DNA of 64,000 nt from Paracyclopina nana (taxonomy: Eukaryota > Arthropoda > Copepoda > Cyclopoida > Cyclopettidae): positions 6,026,501 through 6,090,500 of the forward strand of contig JAGUCH010000002.1 in the NCBI GenBank assembly GCA_019096065.1, written 5' to 3'. This document shows positions 21,430-38,957 of this stretch, one piece after another (within the stretch, counting starts at the first letter, position 1; the number at the start of each line of letters is the position of its first letter). A model generated the notes under the pieces. The model had not been told where the DNA came from and did no database searches. It saw only the letters and a program-made list of their open reading frames with translations. The position numbers and the translations under genes are program-made.

Positions 21430-21768
21430 TCTTATAGTTGCATATTCTATGCGCATAGAGTGTGTATAAAAAAAGAAGTAGAAACGCATTTTCAAGGTTC
21501 CCCATTCATGCGTAGGTTGAGAGTTACGAACATTTTCTCAATGCACTGAGGGTGGTACAAAAAAAGATACGTACTGTGATGAAATCGTATGGCATATAAC
21601 CAAAAGAAGAAATTCCATTCACTCAATTATTTCATTTCGTTCAAACCAGCAAAGAGGATTTTCGGGATCGATTTACCACACCGTGCAAGATATACGCAAT
21701 GGAATGGTAGCGAGCGCAAAGGTTAAAAATTTTCTTCAGTTAGTCACAGGATTCCAAATGATCTTGAA
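21430..21768. promoter_or_regulatory. Upstream region of the Gly-rich secreted protein gene
   Basis: It lies between the truncated palindrome and the next start codon. No core promoter motif is convincing. Confidence 0.3.
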
Positions 21769-23870
21769 ATGGGAAGAAATCAGCTGTTTTGGACTCTTTT
21801 ATCCTTGACTGCAGCTGTTGCCAAGTGTTCCACAACCTCCCGACAGGTTGAGCCTGATGATGCGTAAGTTTGGCAATAATTGATGCAGCTTTTTTGCGGG
21901 ATATACTAAAATGCGCGACATGCGCGACAAGCACGACAAACTACAAAATGCGCGACATGCGCGACTAATAAAATGCGCGACATGCGCGACTACTAAAATG
22001 CGGGACAGCCAAAAGTACTTGGATTATTAATCCACTAGCACTTTTAATGTAAGAGTAATATATGTATAATTACAGGCAAAAAAAGAAAAAAATATTTTCT
22101 AACATTTTTTTTTTCATGTCTAACATTGTATTTATTTTAAAATTCTATCATTGTTTTATCTCCACTCTGTGGAAAACTACTTTTTAGGTGAACTTTAGGT
22201 GAACACAGTGAGCTCCATCGATGCAATATTTATGAAAAAGCTAACAAATAATCAGTAATAGTAAATAGAGAAAATATTTCAAGAAGTGGTAACAAAAGCA
22301 TTTATTTGCATTTTAGCTGCCTATGGTGCTTGCCGCGCATTTTAGTAGTCGCGCATGTCGCGCATTTTAGTAGTTTGTTGCGCATGTCGCGCTTGTCGCG
22401 CATTTTAGTATATCCCCTTTTTTGCCACATCATGGAAATTTAAATAAAAATGTCGGTAGCTATCATGAGCTCGCGCATTTTCGCTACTTTTAGGATTGTT
22501 GTCGAAGACGATGGAGCTCCATTAGATGGACCAGATGGTCCAAGCATCATCGGATCAGTTGATAAAGTCTTTGGAGCCATCAAGGACTATGACCAGTACA
22601 AATGCATTGAGAGGATGTTGTAAGTAACTGAACGAAGCATTTATATAGTATCCTCACAAGTCTTTGCAATAAGCAATAGGAATGTGAGGGGCTTCTGCAT
22701 TCAGTGATAACTTTCCTTTTGTCACATATAATACCTTGAAGAATCATTAATGTAGGTGCGAAGCCATGTCAGGAGGAGCTGAACAAATTCCTGGTTTGCA
22801 AGGAATAGTCTCGGCTATTACAGGAGAGCCTTCGCTACCCCAGTCTGCTGCCTCAGTTTTAGGAGGTCAGGCTCCATTCCCATCAGGAGCAGGAGGAGGA
22901 GGAAGTGGCTTGGGAATCATAAACTCCCTTTTGGGGGGTGGATCAGGCATAGGCCCATCCCAGTCTTTCCCAACTGGTGGAGGGGGAAGTGGCTTGGGAA
23001 TAATCAACACCTTATTAGGGGGCGGGGGAGGTGGAATTGGTCCTACACAGCCTTTTGGAGGGGTGGGGGGCCAGTCTCAGTTTCCAGGCTCTCCCTCATC
23101 AGGCCTCGGAGTTTTGGACACCCTTGGTGGCCTTTTGTTGGGTGGTGGCGGAAGACCCCCTTTTAATAGACGTAACAGCGCCAACCAAAGGCTTCAAAGG
23201 CCTAGGCAGAGGCCAATCAGAAGACCTCCTCCCCAACGTCGGGCCAACCCTCAAAGAAGACAAGACCAGGCTGAACCACTGCCGAGCTTTCAAGATTTTC
23301 GGCCTTCACCCCAAATTAGGGTGAAAAGACAAACCAGGCTACAGGGGAACATTATCAGGTAGCTGCGCACTTTTTTCAACTTTTCGTCACATGGTAGATC
23401 TTTTTCGTTTCAGGCTTATGCAGGCAACAGGAATGGACTCTTTGAATGCCTTCCCCTACGTTAGGGCAGCCCTGATTGGGCATGCTACCCGTAGGTACAA
23501 CACGGGTAACAGATTCACACGAGCAGGTTCAACGTGCGCCCAATTGTACAAAGAGTGTCCCACTGATCAGGGCAATTTATTGAACTACTTGAACAACCAT
23601 AATGGTGGGCTGGTTAACCAAGTTCAACCTGCGGTAGAAAATGAAGTTGGACCAATCCTGCAATCGATTGTCGCTGACTTGGCCGGCGGAGCAGGAGGAA
23701 CCTCTGGAACCGCAGGAACTGCAGCAAGCACCGCAGAGGGATCATTTGTCAACTCGGATTTGTTCCAGGCTGGAGACACACTTTTTACGAATGCCATCAT
23801 TAACGGAGTGACTGGTGCACTTCAAAATGGGCTTGAGTCTGTTGTGAGCAACATTGCCGGGAAGAAATAA
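21769..23870 (+). CDS. Secreted Gly-rich protein with internal furin-type site
   Basis: Exons 21769-21863, 22494-22619, 22756-23358 and 23414-23870 give 426 residues, with phases agreeing at all junctions. Exon 1 encodes a signal peptide (MGRNQLFWTLLSLTAAVAKC). The N-terminal part has two Cys in YKCIERMLCEA. A central Gly-rich segment repeats GSGLGIIN(S/T)LLGGG twice, followed by an Arg/Pro/Gln-rich stretch. PQIRVKRQTR holds an RVKR dibasic site of proprotein-convertase type just before the last intron. The C-terminal part carries NRFTRAGSTCAQLYKECP and a Gly/Ala/Thr-rich tail. The Cys pairs flanking a low-complexity centre suggest an arthropod secreted or cuticle-associated protein, but I do not recognise the family. 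Intron 1 is occupied mostly by a mobile element (21898-22416). AATAAA overlaps the stop. Confidence 0.85.
21898..22416. mobile_element. 519-bp element with CG-rich repeated ends and perfect 9-bp target duplication, family P4, copy 1
   Basis: Terminal inverted repeats begin GGGATATACTAAAATGCG, and each end continues with several copies of the unit TACTAAAATGCGCGACATGC. The element is flanked by CTTTTTTGC at 21889-21897 and 22417-22425, a perfect 9-bp direct duplication. That size suggests a Mutator- or Merlin-type transposase acting in trans. It sits inside the first intron of the Gly-rich protein gene. There is no coding capacity. Copy 2 is at 63136-63862 in opposite internal orientation. Confidence 0.88.
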
Positions 23871-23908
23871 ATATACCAAATAACTTTCACTGCACATGGT
23901 TCACTTTA

Positions 23909-24472
23909 TTACTCCATGACCTCATCGCTTGGAGGAGTGGAATTATTGAGATTTTCTAGCCCAGCTTTAGTGTACCTTTTCACTTTAAAATTCTGCACAA
24001 ACCTCAGCTCACCATTCCAGTCTTGGAACATCTTTAAATTAGTCATGTCCATAAGATCAGGAATTTCAAGTCCACACCCTTGAAATTCCTCGATCTCTGT
24101 TTTCCGAGTGAGCTCAATGGCATCCAATCTGCTTGAATGTTGATTTCTTTTCTTGAACTGTCCAGATCCTATTGAGTTTTTCAACCTTATTTGTTCAGCT
24201 TCCTCATCATTTCGAGCGATGAAGGCCTCAACAAGTTCAATCATTTGCTCGCCACTGATGCTATCAGTTTCAAGGATGGGGAGGTTGTCATGAAACCACA
24301 ACAGTTTATCTCCCAAGAGCTGCAGTCTTTGGCCTCCAATACTAGCTCTGCTAGATAATTTGGCTTTTCTTTGCTCTTTGGCATGCAACTTTGCCACTTT
24401 TCTGGATTTTGGATGCAGCACTTTGTCCTCGCGAATTGCACCCTTTGCTGGAGCATGCTTTCCCTTCGCCAT
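23909..24472 (-). CDS. TMA16: TMA16-like ribosome-associated protein
   Basis: A single exon from ATG at 24472 gives 187 residues. TMA16 is an assembly factor of the large ribosomal subunit. Diagnostic segments are the basic N-terminus (HPKSRKVAKLHAKEQRK), LLGDKLLWFHDNL, the LVEAFIARNDEEAEQIRLKN block, and FQGCGLEIPDLMDMTNLKMF, which matches the family GLEIPD...NL(K)xF core. The start is fixed by this match. Directly before the ATG is CTTCTTTCACTTTTCAG, a strong 3' splice site, and only 22 nt separate it from the GRWD1 stop. The TMA16 mRNA may therefore be trans-spliced or share the GRWD1 transcript. The stop codon overlaps an AATAAA signal (23905-23910). The last 38 bp face the convergent Gly-rich gene. 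Confidence 0.9.
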   Translation of the reverse strand: MAKGKHAPAKGAIREDKVLHPKSRKVAKLHAKEQRKAKLSSRASIGGQRLQLLGDKLLWFHDNLPILETDSISGEQMIELVEAFIARNDEEAEQIRLKNSIGSGQFKKRNQHSSRLDAIELTRKTEIEEFQGCGLEIPDLMDMTNLKMFQDWNGELRFVQNFKVKRYTKAGLENLNNSTPPSDEVME

Positions 24473-24494
24473 CTGAAAAGTGAAAGAAGCTGCA
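24473..24494 (-). promoter_or_regulatory. Intercistronic 3' splice-site-like sequence between GRWD1 and TMA16
   Basis: On the minus strand the 22 nt after the GRWD1 stop read TGCAGCTTCTTTCACTTTTCAG and are immediately followed by the TMA16 ATG. This has a pyrimidine tract plus AG and no room for an ordinary promoter or upstream exon. Confidence 0.6.
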
Positions 24495-25889
24495 TTACAC
24501 ACTTATGGTTCTAAAGACATCAAAGCCAGTTTCTGAAGTTGCGACAAGCAATCCAGGAATTTGAGGATGCCAATGAAGTTCTTTAACATCTTGCATTCCT
24601 TGATGAATAAACAGCAATTGGGGAGGAATGTCAATGTCCTCCTCTTCGTGGTGATTTTCCTCAGAATCCTTTTCAATGGCCAGATCCCACAAAGCAATTT
24701 GGTTATCAGCTCCAGATGAGGCGAGGACGGTGAAATCTTTGGGGTGCCATTCAACGCTTGTGACGGGTTTGCTATGGTGCTTGAAAACAGCAACAGGCTG
24801 TCCTTTGTCGAAAGATCTCAAATCCCAAATCTTCAAAACACCGTCATCTCCCCCAGATGCCAAAAAGGGTTCGTTTTTGTTCCAGTCAATGACGTTCACA
24901 TCTCCATCATGAGCATTGCTGACGGTCAACATATTGGCTTTTTCTGGGTCCACCCTACAATCCCAAATGCGGATACTTTGATCTACCGAACATGAGGCCA
25001 TGACATTAGCCTCATTGGGAGACCACACAACATCCTCAACCGAGGCAGAGTGACCTCTGAGCGACTTGGCTGAGACAGACCAAGTGTCTTGAGCTGGCTT
25101 CCAAATATGGATATTTTTCTTGCAATCACCAGAAGCCAAGACTCCAGGCATTGTAGGGCTCCAATTCAAGGCAAAACCCTCCGATGAATGTCCCCGAAAA
25201 TTGTACAGAGAACTGGTGAACTCCCGTTGATCTTTTTCAGTATTACCCCCTGGCTGGTTGACCTTCTCCAGACACTTATCAAGGCTCCAAATACCAACTG
25301 ATCCCTGCTCGGACCATGCTGCTGCTAAGGCAGTCCCTCCAATTGTCTTGAACCTGATTCGATTGATGCAACCGCTGTGTTTGAGAGCCGCAATTTTCAT
25401 TTTAGGCTCCTTTTCGGGATCGTCCTCTTCCTCCTCATCAGACTCGTTGTCATCTGAGTCGTCCTCTTCATCTTTATTCTTACGCTTGATTGGGTGAAGG
25501 TTGGACATTTTAAATACAATGACAGAGTTGGCGGACATTTTTTCTGCTTGAGTTCCAGCCACGCCATAAATTGTCATCGGGAAGGAGTCAGCTCTGTCAT
25601 CGCCCAAGTCATCCTGGATGAGATCAAAGCTGAGGCAAGGAGGTCCCAGACTGGCCTGGTGGTAGATTATATACGCTTGTTCATCCATGACAAGCTCTTC
25701 GTTGGCACCAACATCGTCCTTGCCAGGCAAGAAAGCTCTTGGCTTTTCTTCTACCTCTTCAGTGGCGTCATCTTTCTTTACAATGTCTTCATCATCATCC
25801 ACTTCTTCCGATTCATCTGAAGAAGATGACGACTCCTCCTCTTCCATATCCTCATCCTTAATATCTTTGTCAACCTCGTCGATGTCCAT
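24495..25889 (-). CDS. GRWD1: GRWD1 (glutamate-rich WD-repeat protein)
   Basis: A single uninterrupted exon from ATG at 25889 (MDIDEVDKD) gives 464 residues (human 446). GRWD1 is a nuclear histone-binding WD40 protein involved in ribosome biogenesis and chromatin. The N-terminus is an acidic Glu/Asp/Ser tract, followed by the GRWD/CAF1-type motif before the propeller (RAFLPGK...LVMDEQAYIIYHQ). A second acidic insert lies at about residues 145-165. The propeller then shows WD signatures: IHIWKP, IRIWDCR, LKIWDLR and IALWDLA at regular spacing of about 45-50 residues. TMA16, another ribosome-biogenesis factor, follows directly on the same strand. CLPTM1L starts 371 bp upstream in the opposite direction. 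The lack of introns contrasts with neighbouring genes. Confidence 0.95.
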   Translation of the reverse strand: MDIDEVDKDIKDEDMEEEESSSSSDESEEVDDDEDIVKKDDATEEVEEKPRAFLPGKDDVGANEELVMDEQAYIIYHQASLGPPCLSFDLIQDDLGDDRADSFPMTIYGVAGTQAEKMSANSVIVFKMSNLHPIKRKNKDEEDDSDDNESDEEEEDDPEKEPKMKIAALKHSGCINRIRFKTIGGTALAAAWSEQGSVGIWSLDKCLEKVNQPGGNTEKDQREFTSSLYNFRGHSSEGFALNWSPTMPGVLASGDCKKNIHIWKPAQDTWSVSAKSLRGHSASVEDVVWSPNEANVMASCSVDQSIRIWDCRVDPEKANMLTVSNAHDGDVNVIDWNKNEPFLASGGDDGVLKIWDLRSFDKGQPVAVFKHHSKPVTSVEWHPKDFTVLASSGADNQIALWDLAIEKDSEENHHEEEDIDIPPQLLFIHQGMQDVKELHWHPQIPGLLVATSETGFDVFRTISV

Positions 25890-26260
25890 CGCGTACAAAT
25901 GTATAGACACTTAGCACATGTGAGAATGTTTTGTTTTTCGTACGTCAACGCATCGGGAACTGTGCCGATCTGGAAATTTTGGCTTTAGGCCATCCCAACG
26001 AGCAAAACTGTGATTAGATAATGCAAAAAAATTGAAAATATTCTGAGCAAATCAAAATCGTAACAAATTAGCTTGAAACTCACTTAGAGGGCTTTTTTGA
26101 TGATGATGCTCATTTTGGTAGACTCGGTCTTTGATTCACGGAACTTTGCGAGAGTAAGCAACCTCTTCATAATTGTTTACGTTTCAATGAAAGTCGTACA
26201 CGGTACACGTCATTCAAAGTATCGAATTTCAAAAGCCGGTATCATTTTTAAATATTTGCC
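25890..26260. promoter_or_regulatory. Divergent promoter region of GRWD1 and CLPTM1L
   Basis: These 371 bp separate the two start codons. No TATA box is evident. A bidirectional housekeeping promoter is inferred from the arrangement. Confidence 0.4.
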
Positions 26261-28008
26261 ATGTTCAAGATTAGTTTTACTACCATCTTGAGCGTTGCCT
26301 TTCTGGCATACATGGCCAACTCCTTGTGGTCTGTGGCCAGCCTTTATTTCCCGCCTAAATGTGAAAAAGGCTGCTTGTCCAATGGAGTTCACCACCCGGA
26401 TTTCAAGTCGGGCATTCGGTTTATTTTTCTAACCACAGAAGACCAAAGGCCAAAAAGTGACAAAGGCATGCAATATTTGACCTCCTTTGACATTCAAAAT
26501 CTTGACGAAGACTACACGGAAGAAGTTCAGCTTAAAGTGAATCCCAACGTTCTCAAGAAAAACGTGACGCAGTATTTGGCACTGTTTACTCTGCCTATTG
26601 ATCCCAAGGAAGATTTGTCCATGGTTAAAACAAAATGGTCAACATGGATTAGATCGGAAAAGGCCACCTTTACCATGATGACATTGACAAAAAGCCATAT
26701 CCCCGAGGCAGAAACCTTCCAATTATTGAACAATGACGAAGAACTAGTGCCATCTTCAGCGCCAACGACGAGGGCTCCAACTCCTCACATCAGGTCCAAG
26801 ATTAAGATTTGCGTCATGACAGATAAAGCTAAAATGCCGAAGAAAGCGGAAGACATACCTACTGAGATTTACCACCTGATACGATTCAATCCAGGTGGCA
26901 AGTTTTACCTGCCCATGATTTTCTTTGATGAGCTGTCGATGAGAATCCGTGATTTGGTAAAGCTTAACAGTACTGAAGATGTTGTCTCCGTCAATTTGGA
27001 ATACTCCCCGATTTCTTTGGGAAGATTAAGGCTTTTTAGCCAGTTTTCCACTGCTCTGAGCTCGCTTCACCGCTTAGGATTCACTGACAAAGATACGGAT
27101 GAGGTGAAAGGTATTTTTGCTGACACAAACCTTGCTCTGCTGCTGGTCACTTTTGGAGTCAGTGCCATTCATTTGCTTTTTGACTTCCTCGCATTCAAGA
27201 ATGAAATTTCTTTTTGGCGAAACCGAACAACCATGGAAGGATTGTCGTCGAGAACCCTCATATGGAGAGCGTTTAGCCAAAGCATTATATTTTTGTACCT
27301 TATGGACGAGGAAACATCTCTTTTGGTAAAAGAAATATCCTACGATCAAATTGCTTATCATAATGCTGCTTTCTATTTTTAAAGGTGCTCATTCCTAGTG
27401 GCATAGCTGCAATTATCGAAATGTGGAAAGTTACCAAAGCTTTCAGAGTTCATTTGGTAAAGCCGAAGGGTGCTTGGCTGTACCGAATCGAAGTAGGTTC
27501 TAAGCAGTCAAAAGCAGAACAAGACACCGAAGCCTACGATTCAGAGTCTATGAGATACTTGTCCTATGTGCTGTATCCATTGTGCCTTGGGGGAGCTGTC
27601 TACTCTCTTTTGTATACCCCTCACAAATCTTGGTGGTCCTGGACTATTAGCAGCATGGTTAATGGAGTCTATGCGTTTGGATTCCTATTCATGCTTCCCC
27701 AACTGTTTGTCAACTACAAGCTGAAGTCTGTGGCTCACTTGCCGTGGCGGGCATTTATGTACAAGGCATTTAATACTTTCATTGATGACCTCTTTGCCTT
27801 TATCATTACCATGCCAACTGCGCATAGAGTGGCTTGCTTCAGAGACGACATTGTTTTCCTGATTTATCTCTATCAGAGGTATTTGTATCCTGTGGATAAA
27901 TCGAGGATTGACATGAGTGGAATGATCGAAGAAACAACAGATACCAAAGAAGTTGTTACGAATGAAAAGGGCCAAGTGACTACCAGAAGTAAAGCCAAGA
28001 AAGAATAA
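26261..28008 (+). CDS. CLPTM1L: CLPTM1-like protein (CLPTM1L, lipid scramblase family)
   Basis: Exons 26261-27325 and 27385-28008, with a 59-bp intron, give 562 residues (human CLPTM1L has 538). The family is multi-pass in the ER; CLPTM1L has been described as a scramblase of glucosaminylated phosphatidylinositol used in GPI synthesis. An N-terminal hydrophobic anchor (about residues 6-28) is followed by a large lumenal domain containing YLTSFDIQNLDEDY and VQLKVNPNVLKKNVTQYL with glycosylation sites. Then come FDFLAFKNEISFWRNRTTMEGLSSR and a cluster of transmembrane segments. The conserved LPQLFVNYKLKSVAHLPWR and MPTAHRVACFRDDIVFLIYL close the family domain. The tail is charged and ends in a lysine-rich stretch. 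Confidence 0.93.
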
Positions 28009-28207
28009 TTAGTGCAAAAAAGTCACGAGCTTGAGCGTGAAGTGAAAATGAAAAAAAGGCTTGCATCATGTGGCAGCACAACTTACACATACCATTCCTA
28101 TTTGTGGATCTTGTAGTTAATACATTCTAAGTTATCGAGCAAAAGATCAATTACCCACAAAAATATTTTATTGGTAATCACTATGAACCTATTCTAATTG
28201 TTTTAGG
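28009..28207. promoter_or_regulatory. CLPTM1L-NSUN6 gap ending in a 3' splice site
   Basis: The gap is 199 bp on the same strand. Its last bases, CTAATTGTTTTAG, form a good acceptor with only one G before the NSUN6 ATG. The NSUN6 5' UTR is therefore probably joined from a non-coding exon or a leader elsewhere. Confidence 0.45.
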
Positions 28208-29349
28208 ATGTTGCCTCAATTTGCCGAAAATGAAGCCAAGGAATTCATTCTGGACCAAAATTTGTGCAAGGTGTACCCAAATTTGTCGAAGGCACAATTG
28301 TGTCAATGGCTGGCTTCGGCCCCTACCAAAACTTACTTGAGGGTAAATACCACCAAGACTACAAGAAGTGATTTAATTGAAAAAGTCCGAGCTTTGGTGA
28401 CGTCGTGTTCCATTGAGCCTCATGAGCTAGTTGATGATGTGATTGTGATCAGTGACGAAGACAAGCAGCCCTCTTATTTGGACACAGATTTGGACAGCAT
28501 AGTCATCGATCCGAGTTGTGGAGCAGCAGTTCTTCGAGGAGCTGACATTTTTGCTCCTGGTGTCATCGGTGCAAAAATTTCGTTAAAGAAAGGCGATGCT
28601 GTCAATGTATTGGTAGATCTTGAGCAAAACCTGCTCAAAGGTTCGACCAAGTTTGATGTCGACCAATACCACTACATTGGCCAAGGTATCGCACACTTAG
28701 GAAGGTCAGATTTGTTTAAGGACAACATTCAATCTGGAATTGCCATTAAGATGGTCAGCACCTACTCAATTTGCCCTCTGATAAGTGATGATCTACTGAG
28801 CCCCATCCAGAGCTTGTACTTGATGCAAAACCTACCCTCGATTCTTACAGTTCTCCAATTGGACCTGAATCCTAGTGACAAGTGTCTGGATATGTGTGCT
28901 GCTCCAGGAGGAAAGACTACTCATATTGCTCAATTCCTGGTAGATGGATCAGTGACTGCGTTTGACAAATCAAAAGCAAAAATATCACAAATTAACCAAC
29001 TTGCTCAGAGATTAGGAGTGGAGGACAAGATTCAGGCTTATGTTCAGGATGCTTCAAAGGCCACTTTAGAGCTAGAATCTTTTGACAAGGTATTGTTAGA
29101 TGCTCCTTGTTCAGCGCTTGGTCAGAGGCCAATGCTGGTTCAAAAGTCAAAAGCCAAGGACCTCAATTCTTTTTGCAAACTGCAAAAGAAACTCTTCGAT
29201 AAGGCTTTTGAATTGCTGAAGCCTGGAGGAATTCTTGTCTACAGTACTTGCACGGTGACATTGCAAGAAAATGAGTTTCTTGTGAACTGGGCTTTGGACA
29301 AGTATGGCCCAGATCTCGAGCTGAGTCCGACTGATCCTTTAATAGGCCA

Positions 29350-29616
29350 TGTTACAGGATGATCTTGAACATTGGGAGTGGTCAAGGGCAATCCTGGTTG
29401 ACTTTGGATCTGGAGTTGGACAATGGAGTCTCCAGATCAAATCTCCAGCGTGGAAACCTCCGATGAGATGGCTCAGAAGCTCCCGCGACTTTGGGTTGAA
29501 AATAAAGAGCTTTTGAAGGTCTTTACTGTTTGGCGGAAAATCTAATACTGTTTATTTGCATACGTAAACAAAGGGAATTCGGAAATATATACAGTAGCTC
29601 ACTGCAACCTCTTACA
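29350..29616 (-). repeat. 3' LTR of the BEL/Pao element
   Basis: 267 bp, identical by eye to 38691-38957. Its outer edge touches the NSUN6 target duplication GGCCA. Confidence 0.95.
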
Positions 29617-29631
29617 GTTTTCTCCCCCCAT
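29617..29631 (-). other. Polypurine tract of the BEL/Pao element
   Basis: On the minus strand ATGGGGGGAGAAAAC directly precedes the 3' LTR, the expected plus-strand primer position. Confidence 0.75.
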
Positions 29632-30475
29632 TTGAGCAACTAGAAGAGTGCCACTGGAATGGAGCTCAAATCCTCAGAGGCATAATTGAAAGCTTGGATG
29701 GTAAACGATGGGATTTTGCAAGACGCTTCCCTTCGCTGGTGGTTCTAGCAGCAATACGCTTTAATCTAGAATAACCTGAACTTGATATCCCTGGCTTGGC
29801 TTGTATTGCTTCAGCTAGCTTGGCATCAGGAAGCTCCTTGCCCTGAGCAGGCGTGCATTTTGGGGGTGACATTTTCTATTTTTATTCTATTCTTCACGGC
29901 CGTGTTGTTCTTCGACTCATTGGATGACAGGGTTGACAGCACCACAAAAGTAGCCAAAAGGTAGCCAAAAGTGCGACGCCGTCTTGGGTGTTTCTAGTGT
30001 TCTAGGGGATCAACGCCGACTTCTTGATGACAGCACTAATCCTTGGTGAAGAACTAACTAGGTGTTGCTTGTTTGGTGGTATTTTCTCGATTGATTAAAA
30101 ACTGATACATACAGAAAAATGAGAATACTGGGGCTGAGCAAAAGCCGCGTGGTAACTCTGAGCGTCTTGCTGCGCTATCACAGTAGCGTTACCAGATTGT
30201 GGGGCTCGAAATTGGTCAGTCCGTATACAAAAAGGCCACAATTGAGAGCGCGTCTGCAGCTAAGAAAAGCCGCTTGGTAACTCTGAGCGTCATGCTGCGG
30301 CCATCGGCGCTCTAAGAGCCTGGTTACCAGACTTTTGCATCGCAATTGGAGGGCAGTGTTGCTAGATGTTTCTCGAAAGTGGTCAAAAGTTAAAATAAAG
30401 TGCCGCGCGGGATACAATTAAGTTATGAATAATAAAATGAAAAGTACAGTGCACTAGGAAGTCTTGTTTTTCTTC
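29632..30475 (-). other. BEL/Pao 3' untranslated region
   Basis: About 840 bp between the pol stop and the purine tract, without a supported coding frame. A block of about 35 bp (AAAGCCGC..GGTAACTCTGAGCGTC) occurs twice, at 30140-30176 and 30266-30299. One exact copy each of the two 9-bp motif forms lies here, plus a one-mismatch copy. Confidence 0.5.
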
Positions 30476-33400
30476 TTAGTGAAGCTCCTCTTTAGCAAGA
30501 CGCTTAGATCTTCGGGTTCTGGAAGCTATGGGCCCAAAGTCGTCTTCTTGGAGCACTTGCGCAGGCACTGTGACTAACTCGTCTTCAGCAATGTCTCCAA
30601 GGACATCATCCTCGATAACTTCTTCTACAAGAGCATCAGAGTCTTTGGATTTCACTTTTCGCTCACGTGGCAAGTACGGTGCACTATCCTCCTCCTCTTG
30701 ACAAGGTAAAGGAATGAGGTGTATCACTGGCCTTTCCAGATACTTGAACACTGTACTTGTGAGTCCTCTTTTGTCAACTTGGGTGACAGCATATTTTACT
30801 ATTACGCGTCTGACCCTGCCGTCTTGGTTAACATAGACCTTGTCGACTACACATAGTTTCCAGGAGCTGCGCCTTGCATGTTTTCGTGGGTCTACCAGTA
30901 TAACCGGATCACCAGTTTTCAAGTCCTTGACAAAGTTATGCCACTTTGGCATCTTTTGTACTCTGACTAGGTAGCCCTGTATCCAGTAATTCCACATGTC
31001 TTGCATGCACTTTTCCAAGACTGCGTAGTGCTTTGGCAGTGAGCTAATATCTTTAGGGTCAATACTTGGCAGCACTTCACCTCCTGGTCCCCTGGTGAGA
31101 AAGTGGAATGGTGTGATGACATGCTCACCCATGACTGCTACTGGTCTACCATTAACCATTGCTTCTGCTCTTTTTGTGAAAGTTGCGAATTGGTCATAAG
31201 TCAGAAGAGTTTCTCCAACTATTCGATAGAGGGCTTTCTTCCAGTTTTTTACAGCTGCTTCAGCCATTCCGTTGCAGTTAGGTGCATATGGAGGTGACAA
31301 GGACCAGGATTGTACTCCTATAAGAGATGCGTCTTGCCTAAGCTTGAGCCAGTCGATGCTTTCCAAGTTGGCCATGAGCTCTTCGTGGAGTGGATTGTGC
31401 AGGATTTCAATGCGTGCTCTCTTCAAGTTGGAGCCCTGATCACTCCTGATCTCTTGAGGTACTCCAGTCCTCGAAACCATGCGATCAAGCGCGTATCTCA
31501 AGGCGGCAGCAGTCAGCTTTGGAGTAACCTCAGCATGTATGGCTCTTGTGTCTCTACAAATGGCGATGAGCACATAGACTTTTGTTGAGCTGCGACCGTA
31601 CTGGACTAAGAAAGGGCCTGCGAAGTCAATTGCAATACGCCTGAAGGGGAACATTTCTGTGGCAGGCAAAAGGAAGTTGTGGGGCAAAGGAGCCATAATT
31701 TGCTGCATAGTTTTGCGTCTTGCAACTATGCAAAATAAGCATTCATTTGTGATCTTCTTGAATAGCTTAGATGCTCCGACCACATAATATCTCTTCTGGA
31801 GCTCGGCAAGCATAGTGACAACTCCATATCCGTGCCCTAACTCACTGTGAACATGCATGCACACCCTGAGGGCCCAAGCCTTGGGTACAATGAGCCTTGC
31901 TTTGCCGATCCATGTGGGCTCTCCCGTGTATGTTCGTCCTTTCATGCGAAGCTCCCCCCATGTTCCCACAAATGTGTTAAGCGATGCTAGTTGCGACTTT
32001 TTAGGCCATACCTTGTGTTTGTGGAGATAATCGATTTCGTCACCAAACTCCTTTGCTTGGGACATACCAATCAATATGCTCTCAGTCTTTTCCAAGGCAT
32101 TTGGTCGTGGCTCGTATTGAGGAGCTGGCCTTGGTCCATCCTTTTCCTTGTAAACTATCGAAATCTGTTTGAGGAGAGCTAACTTACGTACTAGTTGCTT
32201 GAATGTGAGCCTATTGTGATAGGGCACATATTCTGCCCATGAATTATCAGGTAGGGTCTTCCAAGAGGTCCACCTGTCCAGGTTTTCATCCTTGTGTACT
32301 AGATGCTCTGGGACTTCACGTGCTCCAGCTCGATAAACTTGCTCCAAGACGGCAGCCAGAGTCGACATGATGGTGGCAGATTTCTTCGTAGTTTCCTCCA
32401 TTACTGCCAAATCGTCATCGGTGACATCAATGATCTCATCAGGGTATTCATCGGGCGTCTTGCATAGCCAACTTGGACCATGTGTCCACAATTCGTGTTC
32501 TGAAAGCTGCTTGCATGACAGGCCTCGAGTGGCTAAATCAGCTGAGTTCTCCTTTCCTTTGACGTGCCGCCACCTCCAGGTGTGAGTGAGTTCGAAAATC
32601 TCCGAAACTCGTCTGCCAACAAAGGCTTTCCACACTCTGCCAGGCTTGGCTAACCACATTACCACACACTTAGAATCTGTCCATAGGAAGACCATGTCGA
32701 TGTCGCCAAGGAGCTCTTGAAGGTGTCTAGCAAGACGCGCACCTATCAGAGAACCAAGAAGCTCCTTCTCAGGTATAGACCTGACTTCACTCAAGGGGCA
32801 AAGCCTCATTCTTGATGCTGCTAAGACAGAGCTCGTTGGCCTTGCGTCGTACACACTGACTACATAGGCACACGCTGCGTATGCTACATCTGACGCATCA
32901 GAGAACACATGAAGGTATTTGCGTATTGCTCCCTCAAAACTCAGCGCTCGGTGAAACTTGACTAAGGGCAGATCAGCCAAATCAGAGACATACTCACGCC
33001 ACTTCTTACAAATGTCCTTGGCGTCTTGCGAGGGCAAGCTCTCCAATTCGCTGTCCCATGTCACTTCCTGCGTGGCTCTAAGAGCACATGCTGCTTGGAT
33101 CAGAAGCTTGGGCTTGAGCAGGAGTGGTGTGACCAACCCAAGCAGGTCAAAAAGCCTCGGAGTGTACTGAGTCATCAGCCTCAAAGTTATGGGCTTACCT
33201 TCGAAGGGCTCATATGAGGGGCTTTCAAAATAGATTTTGTCGTCTGTGAGGTCTATATACATGCCCAGTGCTTTCGTTTGGTGGTGGTCGGAGTCTTTCA
33301 CATGGCACACAGTGGCTTTCCAGTCTTCAGGCAAATGAGCCAGAACTTCAGGGTGTGAACAAGTCCATTTTCTCATCGGAAGCTGCGCTTCTCCCATAAT

Positions 33401-34864
33401 GCGAATGATGTCATCGACTGCCGTCTTGGCTTCCTCAACTGAGCTTACTGAGGCGATCAAGTCATCAACATAAAGTGAGTTAGTAAGCAGCTCATAAGCT
33501 TCAGGGCATGTGTCCTTGTACTGCTCAACATGCTTTTGCACACAATAAAGGGCCATGCAAGGCGCTGAAGTTGTACCAAAGGGCACAGACTTAAATTCAT
33601 ATGCTTCACCTTGCCAGAAGAACCTGTGAAACTTCCGGTCCTCTGGAAACAGCCTGAATCGCAAATACATTTTACTCACATCGCCTGTAATGCACACTGG
33701 TTTTTGCCTTGCTTTCACTACAATGTCAAAGCAGTCTTTTTGCAGCTTGGGGCCCGGCATGAGCGCGTCGTTTAAGGATTTTCCATCCCTGGACTTTCTT
33801 GCACCGTCAAAGACCACTCTCACTGGCATGCTTGGCTTGTCATACCTTTTCACGAGAAGCCAATTGAGGAATCTCCCCTCCTTGATTATGTCGCTAGGTC
33901 CCAACTTGCGAACAAAATCAAGATTCACCCATTCATTGACTTCTTGGCATGATTTTTCATATGCTTTCTCACTATAGCTTTTGAGCTTGGACTCCAGCTT
34001 ATTCGTGTCTCTGAGCACTTCATCAGCATTATTAAGGAATTTGGGCTCACCTTTTTTCCATAGGCTTGGCACTGCCATTTGTCCATTGGCTAAGCGGTGC
34101 GTCTTGCTCAGTATTTCATAAGCCCTTTTTTCATTCAAGGACACAAGCTTAGGCTGGGCTGCATTGACAAACTTGTCCAAGTCATAGAGCAGCCGAAGGG
34201 AAGCGTACGGTGGTTCACTTTTATAGCAGCTATTGCTTGTGTTCAGTGGCTCCAAGACGGTAGACACAACTGAACTAGGCAATGCACTTTCAGAGTAGGC
34301 AATCGTTGGTCCTAACTTAGTCAGGATCAAAATTGGTTCACTAGGCGTCTTGCCCCTCACTATGGTGGTTGGACTGATCAGGTCAAAATCACACATACCA
34401 ATCAGCACTTGTGGAGCACCACTCGCAAAGTTAGGAAAACACACTTTCTTTAAATGAGGGAATGCGTCTTGCAGTTTTTTCACAGGTGGCAACTTCATTG
34501 ATGGCTGAAGGTGAGGCATAGTGTCGACTTTTACCTCATAAACTTTGCCTGGATCACTGAGGGGTTTCACACTTAATAATGCCTGAAAACTCTGAAATGT
34601 TGCTTTTGCTCCTACAAATGAAAGCACTCTGTCCTTAGAACTCCCAGTGAGCCTCAGCCTCGTGGCTAAATCAACAGTGATAAGTGATAATTCACTGCCA
34701 TTGTCCAGAAAAGCATTAACAGTTATTTGTACATCTGGGACGGAGGGGTTAGACACTTGCACTGGAACGACGGGAAAAACAACTCTTTGATTTTTAGAGA
34801 GTACCTTTGTTTTGGCTTTGATAGACGCCACCAGCTGATGGAGCGAAGGGGAGCTCGTATTTTG
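30476..34864 (-). CDS. BEL/Pao Pol polyprotein (protease, RT, RNase H, integrase)
   Basis: The open frame starts right after the gag TGA. The first ATG-like start is not obvious, so it is probably made as a readthrough product. About 1,462 codons. Visible in order: an aspartic protease segment with DNG (FLDNGSELSLI, near residue 50); BEL-type reverse transcriptase with SVPFGTTSAP and YVDD; an RNase H segment with FLWTDSK; a zinc-binding HHCC integrase N-terminus (HSELGHG...CLFC); and the integrase catalytic core with IDFAGPF and RSDQGSN. A basic Arg/Lys-rich tail follows. The domain order and the GTTSAP form of RT identify BEL/Pao rather than Gypsy or Copia. No frameshift or premature stop is seen. 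Confidence 0.92.
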   Translation of the reverse strand, partial: QNTSSPSLHQLVASIKAKTKVLSKNQRVVFPVVPVQVSNPSVPDVQITVNAFLDNGSELSLITVDLATRLRLTGSSKDRVLSFVGAKATFQSFQALLSVKPLSDPGKVYEVKVDTMPHLQPSMKLPPVKKLQDAFPHLKKVCFPNFASGAPQVLIGMCDFDLISPTTIVRGKTPSEPILILTKLGPTIAYSESALPSSVVSTVLEPLNTSNSCYKSEPPYASLRLLYDLDKFVNAAQPKLVSLNEKRAYEILSKTHRLANGQMAVPSLWKKGEPKFLNNADEVLRDTNKLESKLKSYSEKAYEKSCQEVNEWVNLDFVRKLGPSDIIKEGRFLNWLLVKRYDKPSMPVRVVFDGARKSRDGKSLNDALMPGPKLQKDCFDIVVKARQKPVCITGDVSKMYLRFRLFPEDRKFHRFFWQGEAYEFKSVPFGTTSAPCMALYCVQKHVEQYKDTCPEAYELLTNSLYVDDLIASVSSVEEAKTAVDDIIRIMGEAQLPMRKWTCSHPEVLAHLPEDWKATVCHVKDSDHHQTKALGMYIDLTDDKIYFESPSYEPFEGKPITLRLMTQYTPRLFDLLGLVTPLLLKPKLLIQAACALRATQEVTWDSELESLPSQDAKDICKKWREYVSDLADLPLVKFHRALSFEGAIRKYLHVFSDASDVAYAACAYVVSVYDARPTSSVLAASRMRLCPLSEVRSIPEKELLGSLIGARLARHLQELLGDIDMVFLWTDSKCVVMWLAKPGRVWKAFVGRRVSEIFELTHTWRWRHVKGKENSADLATRGLSCKQLSEHELWTHGPSWLCKTPDEYPDEIIDVTDDDLAVMEETTKKSATIMSTLAAVLEQVYRAGAREVPEHLVHKDENLDRWTSWKTLPDNSWAEYVPYHNRLTFKQLVRKLALLKQISIVYKEKDGPRPAPQYEPRPNALEKTESILIGMSQAKEFGDEIDYLHKHKVWPKKSQLASLNTFVGTWGELRMKGRTYTGEPTWIGKARLIVPKAWALRVCMHVHSELGHGYGVVTMLAELQKRYYVVGASKLFKKITNECLFCIVARRKTMQQIMAPLPHNFLLPATEMFPFRRIAIDFAGPFLVQYGRSSTKVYVLIAICRDTRAIHAEVTPKLTAAALRYALDRMVSRTGVPQEIRSDQGSNLKRARIEILHNPLHEELMANLESIDWLKLRQDASLIGVQSWSLSPPYAPNCNGMAEAAVKNWKKALYRIVGETLLTYDQFATFTKRAEAMVNGRPVAVMGEHVITPFHFLTRGPGGEVLPSIDPKDISSLPKHYAVLEKCMQDMWNYWIQGYLVRVQKMPKWHNFVKDLKTGDPVILVDPRKHARRSSWKLCVVDKVYVNQDGRVRRVIVKYAVTQVDKRGLTSTVFKYLERPVIHLIPLPCQEEEDSAPYLPRERKVKSKDSDALVEEVIEDDVLGDIAEDELVTVPAQVLQEDDFGPIASRTRRSKRLAKEELH

Positions 34865-34867
34865 GCG

Positions 34868-37800
34868 TCATTGTTTGGAGTCTAATTTTTCACTTAGTGA
34901 CACCACCAGGGCCGTCAGTTTTTCCAGATCTTGTCCTTGTTTTTGGATTTGAGTTTTCATTTCATCAGGCACACTTACTGAGGCAGTCGCTTCCGCTGCT
35001 TTCTTCTTTCTACCGGCTTTTGAGGCAAGGGCTTCAAAGGCACCATGCAAGACGCCATGGTGATCACTACTGCCACACACTTTACAGGTGCCAGTGGACT
35101 CACAGTCTGCCCTAATGTGTTTGCCCTTAAGACACTTATAGCAAGCTCCGGTTGGTCGTAGATTGTAGATCTTTTGACGATCATCAATTTGATCCAAGAC
35201 GGGGCACCTGAAAAGCTTGTGATCCTGGCTGCACAATGGGCACAACACAAAGGTGAATTGTGCGTCTTGCCTGACACTTAGGACAACAGCTTGGTTGTCT
35301 TGATCACCTTCAGACTCTGTGGAACCTGTTTGGTCCAGATTTCCATCCACCTGTTGTAGTGAGAAGGTGGTTTTACCCTGGTGATAGTTGCCTCTTGCAA
35401 ACATGGGCTTTGTGTCATATTTTTTGAGCGGATACGAAACCTTCGGTGCAGTACTGGCCGGAGCTGCTTCTTCAATAGCATCAAAGTCATCACCAAATTT
35501 GACATGCGTGGCAGCCCATTGCTCAAATAGGTCCAGAGTGAGAGTATCCCTACCTAGGGTGGCCAAAAATGTTTGGACATGCTCTCTAGTTCGGGGTGCC
35601 AACTTAACAGTTTGAATGGCCAATGTAGCAAAGGCAGACTGATTAGACTTTGACATCTTTCCCCGCGCACACGCCTTGAGCTGGCCCATGAATTCCAGCA
35701 TGTGTTCGCGTACTGCGATGACAGTTTCCGTCTTCTGCATGTCGACCAGGGGCAGCTTTTGAAGCTTGTGAGTCGCATAAGCTAGCAACTTTTCCAAGTT
35801 GTAGTACTCCTTGTCAAGATGTCTCAGCGCCTTGCGATAACCTCTCTTGCTCCGCTCATGATTTTTGACGAAATGCGAAGCGGGACCGTCTTGGGTGGCA
35901 TTTTTAAGCCTCACAAATTTTTCTTCATAAGAGAGGCCTTGGTCTCGATGAATGTATTGCCTAAAATCAAGACGGAACTCATGGTAGAGGTACCTATTTT
36001 TGCCTGTGAAGGTGGGAGCTTTCAAGTTGTCAAACTTGATCGGGCGTCTTTGCTTTTTGTGCTTGACGACTCGAGTACCACTTGACGAAGAAGACCCCGA
36101 CAACGACGAGGAGGATGACCCCTTTCTTTTCTTTTTGCCCTTCTTTTTCTTCTTGGAGCTGCCATCATCAGACGAGTCCGAAGGATCAGGATCAGTGTCC
36201 CAGAAGTCTGACTCAGTCTCATCGTCTTCCTCTTCCTCAGTAGACTCATACTTTTTCTTGCGTCTTGCTTTACTTGAGCCTGAGGACTTGCTTTTGGAGC
36301 CCTTGGAGCTTGACTTTTTGTCCTTGATGTGCTTTTGTCGCTCCATCTCCTTCTTTTCTTCCGGGTCAGGTCGAGTGTCCTTCTCATAAGCATCAGAGAA
36401 TGGATTGTAATACAGCCTTGATCCTCCTGGACTACGAACAGGATCAACTTTGGAGAACTTGTACATGCTCTTGCGTGACATTCTCAAGCTGTATTCTTGC
36501 ACCTTGATCCATTCATGGGCTTGATCAGACAAGTTGCCGTATTTCTCATCCTCTCCATCCAGCTCCCTTGCTCTCTTATATGACACACTCTGAAGCTCGT
36601 TCCAACTGTGTATCCACAAATCAATGCAGGCCTCCATGTCTGTTAAGAGGGTCTTGATAGAGCCGAGCTCTCCATCACTGCCATCGTAATACTTGACCGC
36701 ATCGACCATGCGCTTGGCTGCATACTGGAGGTTCTTGTGGGCATCTTGCAGCTGGGCTTCTTGGTCAATATAGTTGAGTTCTGGAGGGGCCTTGGTGGGG
36801 TCATACAAGAGCTTGGCCTCATCCTCTTTAGCTTTGGGCTTGATTTTTGGTCCAGTCTCTTGCTCTGCAGGCTTGTTTTTTGGTCTAGTCTCTTGCTCTG
36901 CAGGCTTGTTGACATGAAGGGTCTTCTTGACAAGTGGAGCCTGACCTGTAGCTTCCTTTTCCGGCCTTTTGGTGTTGGCTGGGGGCGTCTTGCCAGCAGT
37001 GGCATTGCTAACCTGCTTGGCTTTCATGGCATTCAGAATGTCTGACTGAAAGAAAGCAGAGGTGACATCCAGCATGGCATCACTCCTCAGATCATGCTCA
37101 AGTTGAGTTGCAAATTGTTGCTCATTTAGAGCCTGGATTTCAATGCTCTCTTTGACCACTGCCTTCATTTCTTGTGCCTTGCCAATGGCATCCTTGAGGG
37201 ATACATGTGTCTTGCCTGCATTCTTGAGCAGTTGGTCTGAGGTGGTGAGGTTGGCCTCTTCATGTACATCCATGTATTCTTGTTCCAGGGCAGCTAGGTC
37301 AATCCTCTCATCTTCCATTTCAGAGGTCATTATTTCAATTGCTTCAAGATTTAGCACCTCTGAGCGCATAGCATGCCTGTATTTCCTGACCATATTGTTC
37401 ACATCAGTGATTCGTCTACCCAAATCCAGCCTGAGGTTGGTGGCTCTTCTTTGCAATTCAAGCCTTGCATCATTGCGACGTCTTCTCTCGGTCCTTTCTT
37501 CCTCAGTGAGCTTGGAGGACTTACTAGGTTGCTTTTGGGCATTGGGATCATCAGTCAGGGATTCATTGGCATTCTCTGCTGATTGGTCCTTTTCTTTGGC
37601 AGGTGGAGGTTCTTCCTCTCTCAGGGTATGCTCTTCCATGGCATTAGAGGCAGCACTGGAAGGCCTAGAGTCCTTGTCAGGGTCTTTATTGCTGCGCGTC
37701 TTGCGATTAGTCATGACTGCAGGTGTACCTGGAGTAGCTTGGATAAATTGCAAGAATTGTTTATAATCCCTATTTAAGGCTGGTGGGGGAGGTTGAGGAG

Positions 37801-37903
37801 TGCTCAGAGCCAGACTGGCAGGACTAGTTGGTGATGCTGATGTGAGCTCCCAATCCTCTTCGAAATCCTCCAGGATGCGCCTAGGTGGTGGCGTATTGCT
37901 CAT
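34868..37903 (-). CDS. BEL/Pao Gag-like protein
   Basis: 1,011 codons from ATG at 37903. The N-terminal half is charged and rich in Glu, Lys and Ser, with probable coiled-coil (residues about 120-260) and a long Ser/Lys/Asp low-complexity stretch before the capsid-like region. Near the C-terminus is a zinc-knuckle cluster: CYKCLKGKHIRADC fits CX2CX4HX4C, with CPLC...H...C before it and CKVCGSSDHH after it. These bind nucleic acid in Gag proteins of this family. The frame ends with TGA, and pol continues in the same frame after it. The length is large for Gag because of the low-complexity expansion. The frame shows no internal damage. Confidence 0.9.
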   Translation of the reverse strand: MSNTPPPRRILEDFEEDWELTSASPTSPASLALSTPQPPPPALNRDYKQFLQFIQATPGTPAVMTNRKTRSNKDPDKDSRPSSAASNAMEEHTLREEEPPPAKEKDQSAENANESLTDDPNAQKQPSKSSKLTEEERTERRRRNDARLELQRRATNLRLDLGRRITDVNNMVRKYRHAMRSEVLNLEAIEIMTSEMEDERIDLAALEQEYMDVHEEANLTTSDQLLKNAGKTHVSLKDAIGKAQEMKAVVKESIEIQALNEQQFATQLEHDLRSDAMLDVTSAFFQSDILNAMKAKQVSNATAGKTPPANTKRPEKEATGQAPLVKKTLHVNKPAEQETRPKNKPAEQETGPKIKPKAKEDEAKLLYDPTKAPPELNYIDQEAQLQDAHKNLQYAAKRMVDAVKYYDGSDGELGSIKTLLTDMEACIDLWIHSWNELQSVSYKRARELDGEDEKYGNLSDQAHEWIKVQEYSLRMSRKSMYKFSKVDPVRSPGGSRLYYNPFSDAYEKDTRPDPEEKKEMERQKHIKDKKSSSKGSKSKSSGSSKARRKKKYESTEEEEDDETESDFWDTDPDPSDSSDDGSSKKKKKGKKKRKGSSSSSLSGSSSSSGTRVVKHKKQRRPIKFDNLKAPTFTGKNRYLYHEFRLDFRQYIHRDQGLSYEEKFVRLKNATQDGPASHFVKNHERSKRGYRKALRHLDKEYYNLEKLLAYATHKLQKLPLVDMQKTETVIAVREHMLEFMGQLKACARGKMSKSNQSAFATLAIQTVKLAPRTREHVQTFLATLGRDTLTLDLFEQWAATHVKFGDDFDAIEEAAPASTAPKVSYPLKKYDTKPMFARGNYHQGKTTFSLQQVDGNLDQTGSTESEGDQDNQAVVLSVRQDAQFTFVLCPLCSQDHKLFRCPVLDQIDDRQKIYNLRPTGACYKCLKGKHIRADCESTGTCKVCGSSDHHGVLHGAFEALASKAGRKKKAAEATASVSVPDEMKTQIQKQGQDLEKLTALVVSLSEKLDSKQ

Positions 37904-38690
37904 GAGTAATGGACTCCCCCCATTGCCAGATACAATAAAACTCAGTCAAAGGATGAAACTTAAGAGTAGCAATACGCGATCTCTTTTTAGTCAAAAACTT
38001 AAAACAAGGTCAGCAAGACGCTTTACCCCTTGTATTTTCAGACTACTTGTCATTGGCAAGCCTCTTGCAGTTTTTAGTAGCAAGACCAGTGTTTAGTGGA
38101 AAATTCCGTTGACATTTTCCGCATCGGCGGCCTCGCCACTTTGCTTCGGTTTTGGGCCAAATAGATGTCAATCCGGGTGCACAGTTGAGCCGTCAATCCC
38201 AGTCCTCAGGCTGCCATTTCAGTCAAAGCTAGTCAAGGTATAAAATTAGAGTAGCAAGACGCGTTTCTCTAGTATTTTATTAAGTCAAAATCACAAAATT
38301 TCATCTAATACAAGGCCAGCAAGACGCTTGGTGCCCCGTAATAGGCATCGCCAATTTGTCACTGAAGCACTGGAAGGGGTTCATTATCCGCGTCGATGGC
38401 CTCGCCGCGTTGCTTCAATTTCTTGAATTCTTTTTTTCAAAATTCAAGATGGCCGACAACTACTTGTCATTGGCGAGCGTCCTTGATGAGTAGTAGTAGA
38501 GGAGTGCTTGGCTCACAAGCAGTTTTTAGTAGCAAGACCAATTTTTAGCGGAAAATTCCGTTGACAATTTTCCGCGTCGGCGGCCTCGCCACTTTGCTTC
38601 GGTTTTGGCTGCAACGACGGTAAATGAGACCATAACAAATTTTAAATCTCACTTGGTGGGTTGCAGCCCCACGAGTTGGGCGCCAGTTCT
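37904..38690 (-). repeat. BEL/Pao 5' leader with direct repeats and hairpins
   Basis: About 790 bp between LTR and gag. A unit of about 90 bp (GCAGTTTTTAGTAGCAAGACC ... CTTCGGTTTTGG) occurs at 38067-38154 and 38519-38607, and part of it near 38390-38415. Both full units contain a hairpin, GGAAAATT/AATTTTCC at 38550-38573 and a 7-bp version at 38098-38120. Three GCAAGACGC motifs also lie here. Candidate packaging or dimerisation structures (inference). Confidence 0.6.
38666..38685 (-). other. Primer-binding site of the BEL/Pao element
   Basis: The plus strand reads GCCCCACGAGTTGGGCGCCA, matching a tRNA 3' end with CCA (tRNA-Lys-like). It lies 5 nt inside the 5' LTR, where reverse transcription would be primed. 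Confidence 0.75.
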
Positions 38691-38957
38691 TGTTACAGGA
38701 TGATCTTGAACATTGGGAGTGGTCAAGGGCAATCCTGGTTGACTTTGGATCTGGAGTTGGACAATGGAGTCTCCAGATCAAATCTCCAGCGTGGAAACCT
38801 CCGATGAGATGGCTCAGAAGCTCCCGCGACTTTGGGTTGAAAATAAAGAGCTTTTGAAGGTCTTTACTGTTTGGCGGAAAATCTAATACTGTTTATTTGC
38901 ATACGTAAACAAAGGGAATTCGGAAATATATACAGTAGCTCACTGCAACCTCTTACA
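38691..38957 (-). repeat. 5' LTR of the BEL/Pao element
   Basis: 267 bp, TG...CA in element orientation. A TATATAT box lies near its upstream end (about 38928-38936) and an AAATAAAC polyadenylation-like signal is at about 38890. It is identical by eye to the other LTR. Confidence 0.95.

Follow-up and report, generated by a model that had tools for sequence, protein, structure and literature searches.

Dispersed dyads with family-specific centres in BEL/Pao retrotransposons of the copepod Paracyclopina nana

We analyzed a 64,000-nucleotide stretch of the genome of Paracyclopina nana (contig JAGUCH010000002.1, positions 6,026,501 to 6,090,500; hereafter the window), which contains a BEL/Pao long terminal repeat (LTR) element strewn with short dyads, each made of a constant centre between complementary arms, and compared it with other BEL/Pao loci of the same 92 Mb genome. 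The window element carries a Pao peptidase, a reverse transcriptase, an integrase and gag between its LTRs, as expected of BEL/Pao elements (Belpaoviridae). Its LTR ends were set by eye at TG..CA, and a 5-bp target duplication, GGCCA, flanks it (boundary likewise judged by eye). The two LTRs are 100% identical, indicating that the element is young. Zinc-knuckle-like motifs were recognized by eye in open reading frame (ORF) 1, and matches to rve (1.5e-5) and H2C2 (1.3e-4) in pol lie below the curated cut-offs. The element is laid out as follows.

29350..38957, sense on the minus strand: BEL/Pao LTR element, LTRs at 29350-29616 and 38691-38957
34868..37945, minus strand: ORF1, gag-like, by domain match to DUF1759 (4e-7)
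30476..34867, minus strand: ORF2, pol, by domain matches to Peptidase_A17 (2e-28), RVT_1 (6e-11), DUF1758 and DUF5641

A preliminary description of the window had reported 25 sites of two related 9-mers in this element, 18 of GCGTCTTGC/GCAAGACGC and 7 of CCGTCTTGG/CCAAGACGG, all of which proved correct to the letter; an overlooked GCAAGACGC at 29718 brings the full 9-mer sites to 26. The remark that the outer bases of the CGTCTTG core are complementary also stood, applying to 26 of the 27 cores in the element (19 G..C and 7 C..G, the exception being T..G). The statement that no full 9-mer occurs in host DNA was mistaken, as CCGTCTTGG at 10978 is in host DNA; the 54.4 kb of the window outside the element holds 0 and 1 of the two 9-mers. 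The 19 and 7 copies compare with means of 0.06 and 0.05 (maxima 3 and 2) after dinucleotide shuffling of the element (1000 replicates), and within both ORFs the 14 copies of GCAAGACGC and 6 of CCAAGACGG compare with means of 0.89 (maximum 4) and 0.38 (maximum 3) in 1000 codon-preserving shuffles. Genome-wide there are 411 copies of GCAAGACGC against 181 of the reversed control word; because just 44 of them belong to the window element and its close copies L009 and L010, further carriers may exist. Another word, ATGCGCGAC, has 15 copies in the part of the window beyond the element, apparently around 19000-29000, and probably represents a repeat local to the host DNA.

The unit is not the fixed 9-mer of the preliminary description but a dyad, or mini stem-loop, in which a family-specific centre is enclosed by Watson–Crick complementary arms of variable sequence. 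In the window element, 29 of 56 occurrences of AAGAC/GTCTT have complementary 2-bp arms of some kind, against 3.5 expected; pol contains 16 of them, gag 7, and the leader and the 3' non-coding part 3 each.

29718..29726, plus strand, 3' non-coding: GCAAGACGC
29979..29987, minus strand, 3' non-coding: CC[AAGAC]GG
30162..30170, minus strand, 3' non-coding: GC[AAGAC]GC
30495..30503, plus strand, pol: GC..GC
30819..30827, minus strand, pol: CC..GG
31329..31337, minus strand, pol: GC..GC
31715..31723, minus strand, pol: GC..GC
32254..32262, minus strand, pol: other arms, GG[AAGAC]CC
32344..32352, plus strand, pol: CC..GG
32455..32463, minus strand, pol: GC..GC
32730..32738, plus strand, pol: GC..GC
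32821..32829, plus strand, pol: other arms, CT[AAGAC]AG
33021..33029, minus strand, pol: GC..GC
33291..33299, minus strand, pol: other arms, GA[AAGAC]TC
33421..33429, minus strand, pol: CC..GG
34099..34107, minus strand, pol: GC..GC
34252..34260, plus strand, pol: CC..GG
34345..34353, minus strand, pol: GC..GC
34464..34472, minus strand, pol: GC..GC
35047..35055, plus strand, gag: GC..GC
35194..35202, plus strand, gag: CC..GG
35262..35270, minus strand, gag: GC..GC
35886..35894, minus strand, gag: CC..GG
36260..36268, minus strand, gag: GC..GC
36985..36993, minus strand, gag: GC..GC
37696..37704, minus strand, gag: GC..GC
38013..38021, plus strand, leader: GC..GC
38254..38262, plus strand, leader: GC..GC
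38319..38327, plus strand, leader: GC..GC

Such a pattern might be thought to stem from codon usage, low complexity or a recent duplication within the element, which is GC-richer than most of the window and, by its identical LTRs, young. This explanation is refuted by the codon-preserving shuffles, and the dinucleotide shuffles also speak against it, as do the 6 of 29 dyads in the non-coding leader and 3' part, the flanks of the individual sites, which are unrelated to each other, and the silent-site conservation found in other families (below); it has next to no chance of being right. A role of AAGAC as an integration target was rejected because the target duplication of the window element is GGCCA.

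A pol probe matches 17 places in the genome, the window's own included, and of 243 candidate Pao peptidase matches at least 150 received a score. We assembled 25 BEL/Pao loci, namely the window element, 16 found by DNA similarity to it (14 of them not near-copies) and 8 hand-picked from the peptidase list; the window element, L009 and L010 form one family, L016 and L017 are 97.6% identical, and L020, L022 and L024 about 94%, so that the loci do not all count as independent. Apart from L009 and L010, related elements hold at most one GCAAGACGC, but they contain other dispersed words with complementary flanks. A search of related families for another dispersed word, proposed in the preliminary description, thus revealed different words in the same architecture, so this type of motif is not peculiar to the window element. 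When each locus was scanned for centre words of any sequence with above-chance complementarity of their flanks, most families showed one or a few dominant centres, and nine strong sets and two weaker ones were obtained.

AAGAC: window element and L010, 2-bp arms
AATNC/ACATC: L011-L013
TTAA: L014, L018 and L019
CTAC: L015-L017, arms mostly 3-5 bp
GCAC, GTAC, GAGC and other GNNC: L020-L024
AAT/ATT between GC arms: L027
CAK between C-G: L029 and L035
GCCGC: L030
GCTA: L032
GTCA/TTCA (weaker set): L028
GAAAC (weaker set): L025

In many BEL/Pao families of this genome, an element has some 10 to 43 dyads. Complementary arms enclose 43 of 57 TTAA words in L018 (3.6 expected) and 21 of 65 CTAC words in L015 (1.0 expected), and the stems of the CTAC family, for example GCCT[CTAC]AGGC and GGTT[CTAC]AACC, have little in common beyond their complementarity. 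In L027, the outer pair of NGCAATGCN' is T-A, C-G and A-T at 8 sites each and G-C at another 4. In the GCAC elements L020, L022 and L024 the two positions outside the 3-bp arms pair 0 and 1 times in 58, where pairing in about a quarter of cases is expected, as if longer stems were avoided in these closely similar loci; in L021 the corresponding figures are 5 and 0 of 20, so that only one position shows the scarcity. Judged by sequence, related families carry related centres: in the C-terminal 385 residues of ORF1, identity is 50% between AAGAC and AATNC elements, and between families with unrelated centres it is 33-42% or, in L025, L027 and L028, 24-27%. Alignable sites between families with different centres are few and mostly not shared.

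In a uniform screen with shuffled controls, 19 of the 25 BEL/Pao loci reached a log10P of -9 or better, a cut-off chosen after the values had been seen, and four (L012, L013, L025 and L028) lay between -5 and -7.2; with 12 shuffles per locus, the strongest shuffled value was -5.6. L009, of which just ~2.8 kb aligns to the window element, gave no signal. None of three other LTR loci of 5-6 kb each, presumed gypsy-like from an integrase zinc-finger match, reached -9, and neither did any of six host pieces, two of which scored -6.8 and -5.9, values that we attribute to local repeats. Scans of viral_contigs with a piece of the window and with a seven-family profile matched 1 and 39 stretches, respectively, none of which was confirmed as a relative in another organism. 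A search of the genome for the nematode SL1 leader, with up to 1 mismatch allowed, gave no match.

Conservation of silent positions was compared in five within-family pairs. Pooled, 120 of 144 fourfold sites inside dyads were identical (83%), compared with 316 of 696 (45%) in decoy dyads of equal spacer length, 35 of 79 (44%) in armless centre words and 1229 of 3106 (40%) elsewhere. Arms (68/80) and centres (52/64) are both protected. Fourfold identity in the individual pairs was as follows.

L018/L019: 34/36 inside, 462/851 outside
L015/L017: 25/28 inside, 302/810 outside
L021/L022: 26/30 inside, 306/752 outside
L011/L012: 19/28 inside, 320/891 outside
L029/L035: 16/22 inside, 184/564 outside

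In L029/L035 the armless centre word is rather conserved too (12/20). The pooled total excludes the window element/L010 pair and the cross-family comparisons L027/L029 (5/7 inside, 71/223 outside) and L027/L035 (5/8 and 88/228). The preliminary description had proposed testing whether sites are conserved more than their silent neighbours, which holds for the five pairs; for the window family the test is without power, since its sole near-complete relative, L010, is 97% identical. Nor is the motif missing from this relative, as 27 of the 29 sites are identical in L010. Selection on the dispersed dyads is well shown.

The dyads are also spaced more evenly than random in 9 of 16 loci (coefficient of variation, CV, 0.47-0.69, each P 0.022 or less), most evenly in L019 (CV 0.47 against 0.96, 0/5000). 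This even spacing is one of several findings that sit poorly with a mutational or repair drive that makes and keeps palindromes without benefit to the element. Such a drive has been proposed for HIP1, a dispersed palindrome for which excerpts of PMC4390886 give a mismatch-repair model, and it might account for perfect sites being in large excess (251 against 21 expected, +230) while single-mismatch sites, mostly A.C, are only slightly so (185 against 141, +44). However, family-specific words coexist in one host nucleus, L032 combines a sense-strand bias with tolerance of G.U pairs (below), and differences at sites are mostly one or two substitutions, a poor fit with sequence-blind repair; we regard a drive as quite unlikely. 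The same predominance of one or two substitutions within families left insertion of mobile mini-hairpins unsupported (L018/L019 have 2 indels among 11 differing sites). A further idea, that the centre is tolerated solely within a dyad, was discarded, since the frequency of unpaired centre words is much like that in other families; codon-preserving shuffles by themselves had hinted at a depletion of unpaired TTAA.

Strand preferences bear on whether the dyads are read as RNA or as DNA. In L032, GCTA with three complementary pairs occurs at 22 of 55 sense words and 1 of 26 antisense words, and sites containing a G.U pair add 7 in sense and none in antisense. The bias is similar for CCAGG in L035 (19/36 sense, 0/17 antisense), CCATG in L029 (11/30 and 0/14), and GTCA (11/47 and 0/42) and TTCA (8/38 and 1/44) in L028, with weaker counts for CCAGG in L029 (12/37 and 0/9), CCATG in L035 (5/15 and 1/14) and GAAAC in L025 (6/18 and 0/4). 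The L032 stems have a predicted mean probability of 0.75 in sense RNA, against 0.15 for decoys. Because their loops are nearly all in sense and G.U is tolerated in L032, the dyads of L028, L029/L035 and L032 look like sense-strand RNA hairpins. Of the preliminary description's suggestion of a DNA- or RNA-binding site, the selected pattern is retained, and a general DNA insulator or silencing site is argued against by this RNA-hairpin appearance. Recruitment of a DNA-binding protein of the host, with insulation, activation or silencing of the element as the outcome, would suit sites spread through coding and non-coding parts, and the analogy drawn in the preliminary description favours it; we nevertheless judge it very unlikely, given that the words differ by family, that complementarity alone constrains the arms and that some families are sense-biased.

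The reading we prefer, and to which we give about an even chance, is that the dispersed family-specific stem-loops provide the genomic RNA of the element with multivalent signals for self-recognition. A family's own Gag would bind the loops, and its own genome would thereby be co-assembled into particles; alternatively, where a loop coexists with its complement or is complementary to itself, hairpins might also touch loop to loop and gather RNAs of the same family. As the centre drifts with the family, co-resident families would be kept from packaging one another's RNA. For the window family, in which both orientations occur without a G.U excess, action at the RNA level is inferred from its relatives; Gag would be the presumed reader and packaging or self-sorting the presumed purpose.

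A number of observations weigh against this reading. L031 gave no signal in the uniform screen, L012 (-5.1) scarcely exceeds its own best shuffle (-4.9), and spacing is not significantly even in 7 of 16 loci (L011, L012, L013, L014, L021, L024 and L028). The silent sites of the window element and L010 are too alike to discriminate (33/34 inside, 992/1042 outside). The L032 stems are predicted to fold in antisense too (0.55, decoys 0.20). Tolerance of G.U is clear in L032 only: L028 has 4 such sites in sense and 1 in antisense, and none were found for CCAGG in L035 or L029. In the window element itself, dyads form at comparable fractions of sense (18/37) and antisense words (11/19), and its family shows no excess of G.U over A.C, which leaves room for a reader at the DNA level. 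For its 2-bp stems, weak pairing in RNA is predicted, with a mean probability of 0.21 in sense (decoys 0.10) and 0.31 in antisense (decoys 0.07). The ACATC loops, finally, are nearly one-sided (8:1 in L011, 7:1 in L012) and so fit poorly with loop-loop pairing.

In families with both orientations, that of the window element included, the dyad might be recognized on DNA, either double-stranded or briefly single-stranded. The reader could, for instance, be a protein of the element or of the host that coats complementary DNA (cDNA), imports it or organises the integrated copy. Both orientations are used in the window, CTAC, GNNC, L027 and L030 families, specifically in the window element, L015, L017, L020-L024, L027 and L030; outside the window family, too, G.U is not in excess over A.C in these families, except for GAGC in L023 (7 against 2.2 expected), and dyad symmetry is strand-neutral. 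Against such a reader, L028, L029/L035 and L032 show this architecture with a strong sense bias, and we know of no protein that reads arms by complementarity alone; on balance we consider it unlikely. In many families a loop occurs together with its complement or is itself palindromic (TTAA, GTAC), which is not the case in L028, L029/L035 and L032. More tentatively, and with less than an even chance, each of the families in one nucleus may evolve a private base-pairing address made of tens of dispersed dyads, with the centre as its password; in strand-symmetric families, pairing of loop and complement would selectively condense a family's own RNAs or cDNAs with no protein reading the sequence.

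The coding arrangement of the window clade also deserves mention. ORF2 is in frame with ORF1 past one TGA (34868-34870, minus strand), and a single TGA followed by C separates in-frame gag and pol in all five clade members examined (the window element and L010-L013). Since it is kept in all five despite a DNA identity of 67-72% between the branches, this layout suggests UGA read-through for pol. Elsewhere, gag and pol frames overlap (L014, L015, L017, L019 and L021) or form a single long frame (L025, L027, L029 and L035), and L031 has an in-frame TGA-CTA after 2060 codons. The ~600 ORF1 residues before DUF1759 (36026-37903, minus strand) end in a lysine/serine-rich low-complexity stretch, and among the loci searched tblastn matched this N-terminal part only in L010-L013. 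Within the leader, at 38067-38608, repeats of 42-52 bp are present in two to three diverged copies, one of which includes AGTAGCAAGACCAG, a sequence close to the dyad word.

DNA uptake sequences of competent bacteria, too, are short words scattered in excess that label DNA as self, but they are fixed words of bacterial chromosomes without covarying arms. Several other known systems resemble the BEL/Pao dyads in part. In single-stranded RNA viruses and hepatitis B virus, dispersed stem-loops share a short loop motif, -RGAG- in hepatitis B virus, according to excerpts of PMC7612645. The BEL/Pao elements have in common with these packaging signals the many dispersed stem-loops per genome with a shared short loop; unlike them, their loop is nearly exact, family-specific and present in ~10-43 copies, the families tested show strong silent-site conservation, both orientations occur in many families, and the stems are mostly 2-5 bp. 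Coverage of the whole RNA by family-private loops would fit Gag-driven assembly of the kind proposed for hepatitis B virus and several single-stranded RNA virus families. Retroviral dimerisation hairpins, which let RNAs pair through palindromic kissing loops and, in gammaretroviruses, GACG tetraloops (excerpts of PMC5874298), are likewise short self-complementary or kissing loops in retroelement RNA, but as described there they are few and mostly near the 5' end, whereas the BEL/Pao dyads number in the tens and are element-wide. HIP1 of cyanobacteria, with alternative words in other genomes (excerpts of PMC4390886), is similarly short, dispersed and replaced between sets. However, HIP1 has a fixed sequence and is linked to DNA methyltransferases; the BEL/Pao elements have no single fixed palindromic word, their arms varying yet staying complementary, some sets are sense-biased, and the sharing unit is a retroelement family.

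Among the matches listed in our literature search, judged by title and the start of the abstract and with subscription journals mostly outside coverage, no description of dispersed stem-loops in BEL/Pao or other LTR elements was found. As far as the literature was searched, dispersed shared-loop stem-loops are known from RNA viruses, and the family-specific, often strand-symmetric and near-exact retrotransposon form is new. Counting k-mers misses such codes: the commonest 9-mer of L032 occurs only 4 times, yet the element has 22 sense GCTA loops with three complementary flanking pairs. According to the International Committee on Taxonomy of Viruses profile, replication of Belpaoviridae is poorly understood (PMC8742986). 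How an LTR retrotransposon chooses its own RNA among those of its relatives is poorly known, and family-specific, selected stem-loops offer a direct handle on this choice, with families that carry different words serving as natural controls. If the notion of a private base-pairing address is true, it would amount to a self/non-self code written in nucleic acid, of which the matches listed contain no earlier description in a mobile element.

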